60,180 nt of DNA from Brachyspira alvinipulli ATCC 51933 (GTDB lineage: Bacteria > Spirochaetota > Brachyspiria > Brachyspirales > Brachyspiraceae): the NCBI RefSeq assembly GCF_000518245.1, contig NZ_JADF01000022.1, positions 1 to 60,180 on the forward strand. The letters are read 5' to 3'. The notes beneath the pieces were generated by a model. It was given only the letters and a program-made list of their open reading frames with translations, was not told the origin of the DNA and searched no databases. The translations under genes were made by a program, and so were the position numbers. Positions 56,943 through 58,241 of the stretch are shown one piece after another; positions within the stretch are counted from its first letter, which is position 1, and each line of letters opens with the position of its first letter.

Positions 56943-58241
56943 TTATGCGGCATTATAATATTGTCGCATAGCTTGTAATTTATCTGTTAATATATTATTA
57001 TTTAAGTATATGTATTCTTTACATGTCTGTCTGTCTGTCTGTCTGTCTGTCTGTCTGTCTGTCTGTCTGTCTGTCTGTCTGTCTGTCTGTCTGTCTGTCT
57101 GTCTGTCTGTTAAAAATTTAACTTTATTTTTTAATCCCATTTCTTTTATTTGCTCCATAATTTGAAGTGAATATACACTTGGCAAAACTAATATTGTAGC
57201 ATCTGGATAATCAAATATACTATCAGGTGAATTGATTTTATAATTTAAAATATAATTTCCTTGTTTTGTTGGTGAAGAGTCTACTATATTAACTATATTA
57301 CATTTTTCTAATCCTAATGATAATAATTGTAAACTTGAAGAACCTATACCCCATAATATAATTTTTTCATGTGAAAATATAAATTTTTCTATAATTCTAT
57401 TTGAAGATTTAGATTTTTCTATATACTTGTATAATTCATTATTATTTGACTTTTGCATAATTTTTTTATTTTTTTTGATAATAAATCTAATAGATGGAAA
57501 ATTTAAACTTAAACATTCCATAGAATCTATTATTTGTAAATCAAGTATTTTTATTAAATTATAAATTGATGTATAAGTAAAATGCGTTATATGTTCATAA
57601 TTAAAAAAATGATACGGGTATTGATAAAATTCAATATACTTATTAGAATTTGGTACTTCTAAGAAAATCATTCCATTTTCTTTTAAATATAGAGAAATAT
57701 TTAGCATCACCATTTTGGCATTCCACATATGTTCTAATACATGGGATAATATAATGAAATCAAATTTTCCATAATATTCTTGATTATAATTTTCTATATC
57801 TTCTATATTTATAATATTTATACCATGTTCCAATAATATTTCATTACACTTTTTAGAAGGCTCTATAGCAAATATATTGTTAAAACCATTATTTTTTAAA
57901 GTTATTAATAAACCACCTGATCCAACTCCAATATCACAAATATAGGCATCTTTACTAAAATAATTAGATATATAATCAGATATATAAGTATATTGACTAA
58001 TTCTATCTTTTGTATATTCTCCACCACTTGCGAAAGTATTTCCATATGTAGATTTATTATTATAATAATAATTAAAATCTGCTTTACTAGCATCAAATCT
58101 GGAGTATATGCAATAACAATTTGAACATTCTGTTATATTGTATATTTCAGGAAGTCCTGTTATTTTTTTATTATCAGGAAATTTAACTTCTATTAGATTA
58201 TTATGTTCATTACTATTACATACAGGACAATATCTAAGCAT
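56943..58241 (-). CDS. SAM-dependent C-methyltransferase-type protein with a tetranucleotide microsatellite tail
   Basis: About 432 residues from the ATG at 58241; an in-frame ATG six codons upstream overlaps the previous gene, but the former is typical of the family and has GGAG upstream. The N-terminus has a zinc-binding CxxC/CxxC pair (YCPVCNSNEH, TECSNCYC), a SAM fold follows (YICDIGVGSGGLLITLKNNG; FDFIILSHVLEHM), and the C-terminal third (KIILWGIGSSSLQLLSLGLEKCNIVNIVDSSP) is of the Methyltransf_14 C-methyltransferase type. After the catalytic part a run of seven Thr-Asp-Arg-Gln units (21 tetranucleotide copies) leads into CKEYIYLNNNI and the tail to the stop. Sugar C- or O-methylation of a surface glycan is the likely job. 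Confidence 0.85.
   Translation of the reverse strand: MLRYCPVCNSNEHNNLIEVKFPDNKKITGLPEIYNITECSNCYCIYSRFDASKADFNYYYNNKSTYGNTFASGGEYTKDRISQYTYISDYISNYFSKDAYICDIGVGSGGLLITLKNNGFNNIFAIEPSKKCNEILLEHGINIINIEDIENYNQEYYGKFDFIILSHVLEHMWNAKMVMLNISLYLKENGMIFLEVPNSNKYIEFYQYPYHFFNYEHITHFTYTSIYNLIKILDLQIIDSMECLSLNFPSIRFIIKKNKKIMQKSNNNELYKYIEKSKSSNRIIEKFIFSHEKIILWGIGSSSLQLLSLGLEKCNIVNIVDSSPTKQGNYILNYKINSPDSIFDYPDATILVLPSVYSLQIMEQIKEMGLKNKVKFLTDRQTDRQTDRQTDRQTDRQTDRQTDRQTCKEYIYLNNNILTDKLQAMRQYYNAA
57024..57110. repeat. Tetranucleotide microsatellite (TGTC)n, about 21 copies
   Basis: Uninterrupted TGTC/GACA units over 87 bases, inside the coding region and read as seven TDRQ units on the minus strand. As 4 is not divisible by 3, gain or loss of one unit shifts the frame of everything downstream; all three frames through the tract are stop-free. 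Confidence 0.98.

Follow-up and report, generated by a model that had tools for sequence, protein, structure and literature searches.

A tetranucleotide repeat at the 3′ end of a methyltransferase gene in the spirochete Brachyspira alvinipulli ATCC 51933 is, with a chance that we put at nearly even, one copy of a genus-wide, phase-variable module that switches the reading frame at the ends of enzyme genes and would have two outputs, in that it would mark the upstream enzyme for degradation and would make attenuation of the following gene depend on translation. The features from which this reading is built appear in the sequences themselves, namely the repeat, the alternative tails to which it leads, variation of the repeat between strains of related organisms, a conserved hairpin, too little room for a promoter and an excess of C-terminal alanine. 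The genus includes the agent of swine dysentery. The window is the whole stretch of DNA that was analyzed, a contig of 60,180 nucleotides (NZ_JADF01000022.1).

A Repeat Behind an Intact Enzyme

The tract and the genes that surround it are as follows.

56943–58259 (−), open reading frame of a SAM-dependent methyltransferase, 438 aa with repeat and tail included (ORF listing, Pfam)
57528–57977 (−), Methyltransf_23 domain, aa 95–244 (Pfam, E = 1.7e-19)
57126–57401 (−), CoA_binding/Methyltransf_14-like C-terminal region, aa 287–378, ending before the tract (weak Pfam matches)
57024–57110 (−), microsatellite, (TGTC)21.75 on the plus strand and (GACA)n on the coding strand (TRF, ×21.8, 100% matches)
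56943–57023 (−), frame-A tail, 26 codons and TAA, ending Tyr-Tyr-Asn-Ala-Ala (translation)
58249–60179 (−), two radical SAM/SPASM genes upstream, co-directional, adjoining or overlapping (ORFs, Pfam)

A sequence-only reading of the same DNA had described an uninterrupted TGTC tract after the methyltransferase domain, and the tandem repeat search and Pfam agree with it, the tract beginning at about residue 384 and the recognizable methyltransferase domains all ending ahead of it. That reading had the gene run from 56943 to 58241; the end on the side of the tract stands, but 58241 is an internal methionine and the open reading frame reaches 58259. The unit of 4 nt is not a multiple of three and lies near the 3′ end of the gene, past the enzyme domains. 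Since GACA on the coding strand contains no T, there is no stop codon in any of the three frames through the tract, as had been claimed. Frame A, in which the gene now stands, continues past the tract as CKEYIYLNNNILTDKLQAMRQYYNAA, a tail of 26 residues that ends ..YYNAA, while the other two frames come to an early end with ..TDRHVKNTYT and ..TDM, so the earlier contrast between one long and two short ends is also correct. The domain limits and the three frame ends together bear out the proposal that slippage swaps the C-terminus and leaves the enzyme domains untouched. No other run of at least four TGTC units is present in the 3.42-Mb genome, and given this uniqueness and the recurrence of the tail after repeats in other Brachyspira genomes, the tract and its tail are far beyond chance.

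Three further observations concern the window at large. The neighboring radical SAM gene has close matches on B. hyodysenteriae plasmids. The contig opens with a perfect heptamer array (AACTTTA ×13.6 at 1–95), and the assembly may therefore have broken inside a repeat at this point. A 246-bp tandem repeat of 3.7 copies at 24207–25096 (−) codes for a domain that recurs about four times in a row, carries the motif NCATRLRL and is taken by us to resemble PTS EIIB.

Distribution of the Module

Searches with the tail protein favor in-frame copies, and a covariance model of the tail DNA was for this reason built and used for the genus search. It found module copies in 24 of the 26 Brachyspira genomes (E ≤ 0.1) and, in a set of 296 Spirochaetota genomes, none in any other genus at E ≤ 1e-4; Rfam has no family for the module. 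The copy in the window matches model R1 at 56931–57030 with 82 bits, and the tail is present two more times in the same genome, at G000:C1:578636, where it is preceded by (GACCA)7.4, and behind a broken FkbM gene 1.2 kb away.

55690–56876 (−), downstream FkbM methyltransferase, frameshifted (pseudogene), the frame changing near 56800 (T-run) and near 55980
55696–55798 (−), second tail/terminator module copy behind the FkbM pseudogene, without repeat (R1, 88.3 bits)

Nearly all of the copies are preceded by a 4- or 5-nt repeat that lacks T on the coding strand, GACCA in most of them and GACAA, GAGCA, AGGAC or GACA in others; the scan covered units of 4, 5, 7, and 8 nt, and the statement does not extend to units of 3 or 6 nt. 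The host genes encode surface-polysaccharide enzymes (GT2, polysaccharide pyruvyl transferase, TupA-like ATP-grasp, radical SAM, FkbM and other methyltransferases), and the genes downstream of the module are of the same kinds. The tail, for which the sequence-only reading had suggested a search of other genomes, recurs after repeats in other Brachyspira genomes and in related proteins. Degenerate copies of the module also exist, and similar genes in tandem arrays have near-identical 3′ ends.

Other short repeats and shared pieces were seen in these genomes. A motif WWIPxxKWRxxFRxK lies just before the repeat in many host proteins of different families (L084, L085, L096, L097, L101, L119–L122) and is a second shared C-terminal piece. 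At one locus (L155, G011:C90) at least five consecutive genes have 3′ AACAG repeats, four of them with a SQAVA/SQAAA tail. In the genome that contains the window, (GACCA)11.8 directly follows the start codon of a DNA methylase with N6_N4_Mtase and Mrr_cat domains (L083, G000:C5:9819–9873), the ATG now being out of frame with the enzyme, and this has the layout of a classical on/off phase-variable methylase, as judged from its sequence. Heptanucleotide AACAAGC repeats of 10.6 and 14.4 copies are found at the 5′ start of ORFs (L099:1465 and L117:1505, respectively).

Variation in Repeat Number

The data on variation come from a comparison of nine B. hyodysenteriae plasmids and are assembly values that differ between strains. 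One ATP-grasp gene of the plasmids has 8, 8, 8, 9, 10, 10, 11, 11, and 13 repeats, and all three frames are realized. Among the same nine plasmids the repeats number about 4 to 10 in a fucosyltransferase gene, 7 to 13 (AACAG) in an acetyltransferase gene and 8.4 to 10.4 in a methyltransferase gene. The last of these encodes a protein of the same family as the methyltransferase of the window (33% identity), with another repeat and another tail at the same point. The variation in repeat number that had been proposed for the tract is therefore seen in its relatives, between strains. One contig of a sister Brachyspira genome matches plasmid pBhyoB78 without a difference over 5 kb, and several contigs from other genomes break off within repeats of this kind (L092, L094, L110, L111). 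At present 15 of 41 gene-type copies are in frame A, 20 in frame B and six in frame C, as assigned by an anchored rule in which a few anchors are wrong.

Hairpins and the Distance to the Next Gene

The tail DNA contains H1, an inverted repeat of small size (ATATGTA-n5-TACATAT), and H2, a larger hairpin of the form AACCTATG..CATAGGTT followed by T. Their copies in the window are as follows.

57010–57024 (−), H1, ATGTA-AAGAA-TACAT, with 94.5% of cells paired across relatives
56944–56970 (−), H2 core TATGCG..CGCATA and then a T-rich stretch, weakened (−5.3 kcal/mol; stem base broken)

For H2, 92.5% of cells pair in the first alignment compared with 21–54% when the partners are slid, and four pairs have changed on both sides; with 34 distinct copies the values are 85% and 24–46%. 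Single-sequence folding gives z-scores of −3.4 to −6.0 in five of six members and of −0.35 for the copy in the window, at which a strict terminator scan called no terminator. On the basis of the covariation, the z-scores and the scan, H2 looks like an intrinsic terminator in most of the relatives and like a decayed one in the window, and, with a core of −5.3 kcal/mol, that z-score and no terminator from the strict scan, the window copy is not classed as a working attenuator. The inverted repeats could also be read as integron attC-like, a possibility that was set aside since a covarying hairpin followed by a T-run is explanation enough.

In the family, then, a repeat in a translated ORF is followed by an intrinsic terminator that precedes the next gene. 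All 52 elements with repeat and hairpin have either one or two frames that enter the hairpin, with a stop ahead of it in the remaining frame or frames, compared with about 25 of 52 when the spacers are shuffled. Most of these elements are homologous and the test is therefore weaker on family representatives, where seven of seven keep one or two such frames, a result that 3% of shuffles attain. Of the short frames, the closest one mostly has its stop codon 25–59 nt upstream of the hairpin. In Escherichia coli, termination is maximal when the stop codon is beyond about 27 nt from the hairpin, and a one-base frameshift that moved it from 28 to 5 bp changed termination from ∼90% to <10% (PMC4824070). 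The next ATG follows module hairpins at a median of 33 nt and other terminators at 90 nt, and it is within 45 nt in 26 of 35 of the former and in four of 21 of the latter, which lie between co-directional genes (Fisher p = 8e-5). An ordinary promoter would hardly fit into so short a distance behind the module hairpins. Behind other repeats, terminators that are not related to H2 are placed in the same way (L102/L151, L154, L150:2736, and the acetyltransferase gene at L134). There are also leader forms in Brachyspira, in which a short ORF with GACA, AAGC ×35 or GACAA repeats (L100:3987, L101:11142, L085:10538) is followed by a terminator and, about 32 nt later, by the gene, an arrangement like that of pil1 (see below).

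Recurrence of C-Terminal Alanine

Alanine is the last residue in 0.8% of 372 other ORFs, although it makes up 4.3% of residues. When the tail families were separated by pairwise alignment, one frame was found to be Ala-ending in at least half of the members in eight of 15 families, where 0.62 are expected and eight were never reached in 200,000 simulations; three of the Ala-ending families have a common GCATA..TTATCG stretch and may be one, which would lower the count to six. Some Ala-ending families have no terminator, and their tails end in KEVA, EEAA, RKTA, and RIAA. A second 3′ element of this kind, without terminator and with an Ala-ending frame, lies behind AGAGC (or AACAG) repeats and consists of GCATA, about 10–20 nt, and TTATCG or a close variant (L085:636, L097:12746, L163:6484 and 7822, L156–L159, L134:27627).

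The alanine codons of the main family sit within the hairpin stem. Where its hairpin is lost or weak, the ends are still NAA, IAA, IVA, or ITA, with the stop codon mostly changed from TAG to TAA, while other such copies have lost both. Leader forms with the main-family hairpin, which are few and related, mostly stop in the loop and have no alanine, and there are copies with a terminator and no Ala end (L102, L154, L112, L126). The tag encoded by the genome's own tmRNA is ADEYALAA, which likewise ends in Ala-Ala, and a ClpX gene is present. The body of the tail has no excess of changes at codon position 3, and synonymous changes are fewer in the tail frame than in either of the other two. Outside the main family the tails are unrelated in sequence and have the final alanine alone in common.

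Alternative Explanations

The likeliest of the alternatives is an attenuator alone, where the repeat governs whether transcription continues into the following gene, and the peptide of the tail is a side effect of translating the terminator hairpin. This would explain the covarying hairpin, the ATG 33 nt beyond it, a tail body that is not constrained as coding sequence and the leader-ORF forms within Brachyspira, and it has a precedent in pil1 (PMC3894217). We nevertheless consider it unlikely, as Ala ends recur in terminator-free families, survive in copies that have lost the hairpin and are mostly missing from leader forms with the same hairpin, and as the hairpin of the window is weak. The converse, a switch that turns a C-terminal degradation tag on and off beside a hairpin that serves simply as the terminator of the gene, is in keeping with the excess of alanine in the tail families, its depletion at the ends of other ORFs, the tmRNA tag and the Ala ends in families without a terminator. 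It would explain neither why the terminators are unusually near the next start codon nor why some repeat families have a terminator and no Ala end, and it appears quite improbable.

There may also be no selected switch at all, with slippage-prone sequence spread by recombination among similar 3′ ends and with neutral tails, as might be suspected from the degenerate copies and from the near-identical ends of genes in tandem arrays. This is very unlikely in view of the recurrence of T-free 4- and 5-nt units, the two kinds of frame kept by all 52 elements, the excess of alanine and the constant spacing between unrelated terminators and the ATG that follows them. That slippage toggles the targeting of the enzyme or its attachment to a partner, as the sequence-only reading had proposed, is hardly tenable: the tail does recur behind many enzymes, which perhaps have a membrane or glycan-assembly site in common, but its body is under no coding constraint, only the final alanine is common to the unrelated tails of other families, and what is conserved is an RNA hairpin and the C-terminal alanine. 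A C-degron needing just the last residues would fit with these findings on the tail, and a partner-binding tail would not.

Proposed Mechanism

The module with two outputs, a tag and an attenuator, could operate as follows. With a T-free unit of 4 or 5 nt, slippage would never halt translation inside the tract and would just determine in which frame the ribosome emerges. An enzyme read in frame A would gain a tail ending in Ala-Ala (or Val-Ala or Thr-Ala), which probably acts like a tmRNA tag and directs it to ClpXP or a similar protease, and the ribosome would enter the terminator hairpin just before the next gene, such that RNA polymerase reads on. In a frame with a stop only a few codons on, the enzyme would probably be stable, and the hairpin, now free to fold, could shut off the gene behind it. 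A single repeat, in elements that have both parts intact, would thereby offer an either/or choice between neighboring surface-sugar enzymes. Proteolysis, antitermination and any phenotype are what we infer from the sequences. The two outputs could occur jointly or separately, and since frame B in many copies also passes the hairpin without an Ala end, they are not strictly coupled. This frame use, together with the Ala tails that lack a terminator, the terminators that lack an Ala end, the location of the main family's Ala codons in the hairpin stem and the weak hairpin of the window, counts against the mechanism, and the frame statistics come largely from one homologous family. With its hairpin weak and the downstream FkbM gene broken, the window would retain mainly the tail switch, the consequence of which would be in the stability of the methyltransferase.

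A more far-reaching form of this mechanism, possible but rather doubtful, is that the cells of a clone choose between the upstream enzyme (stable, terminator on) and the downstream enzyme (upstream one degraded, terminator overrun), and that such choices along arrays of genes generate combinatorial surface diversity. Several elements are on the B. hyodysenteriae plasmid that has been linked, through the genes it carries, to pathogenic potential (PMC4267127), and the genus has dozens of them on surface-polysaccharide genes. If confirmed, the module would explain how Brachyspira could diversify its surface, would be relevant to strain typing and to vaccine antigens, and would represent a switch that leaves an enzyme intact while altering both its fate and the expression of its neighbor.

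Comparison With Known Systems

No report of short-repeat phase variation in Brachyspira was found in the open-access literature searched, outside of which most subscription papers lie. The closest system is that of pil1 and pil3 in Streptococcus gallolyticus, where a GCAGA repeat in the leader ORF of pil1 causes phase variation by attenuation (PMC3894217). As in Brachyspira, a 5-nt repeat in a translated ORF is followed by an intrinsic terminator, and depending on the frame the ribosome either stops well short of the hairpin or arrives at it; GCAGA is also one of the Brachyspira units. The streptococcal ORF is a short leader before a pilus operon, whereas in Brachyspira the repeat is mostly at the 3′ end of a full enzyme gene, and the module is repeated along arrays, uses other units and has an Ala-ending frame.

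In Neisseria gonorrhoeae and Helicobacter canadensis, 3′ repeats similarly swap the C-terminus between three frames (PMC5320596 and work cited there). Tabulated examples from N. gonorrhoeae are poly-G tracts. These are scattered, unrelated genes with no shared tail, and differ in this from the standard, genus-wide module of Brachyspira. The translation-repressed, Rho-independent terminators of E. coli are alike in that the position of the stop codon of the upstream gene sets termination before the next gene, but this was an engineered construct and not a repeat-driven switch (PMC4824070). With the tmRNA (ssrA) tag the Brachyspira tail shares the C-terminal Ala-Ala and is alike in the last residues alone; it is encoded in the gene, depends on the frame and is a putative degron. 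Repeat-driven C-terminal variation (PMC5320596) and repeat-controlled attenuation (PMC3894217) are therefore each known separately, and what is new in Brachyspira, as far as the open-access literature searched shows, is that a single standard module, placed where enzyme genes end, would combine the two, that this module is spread in a genus, and that one of its frames recurrently ends in alanine.
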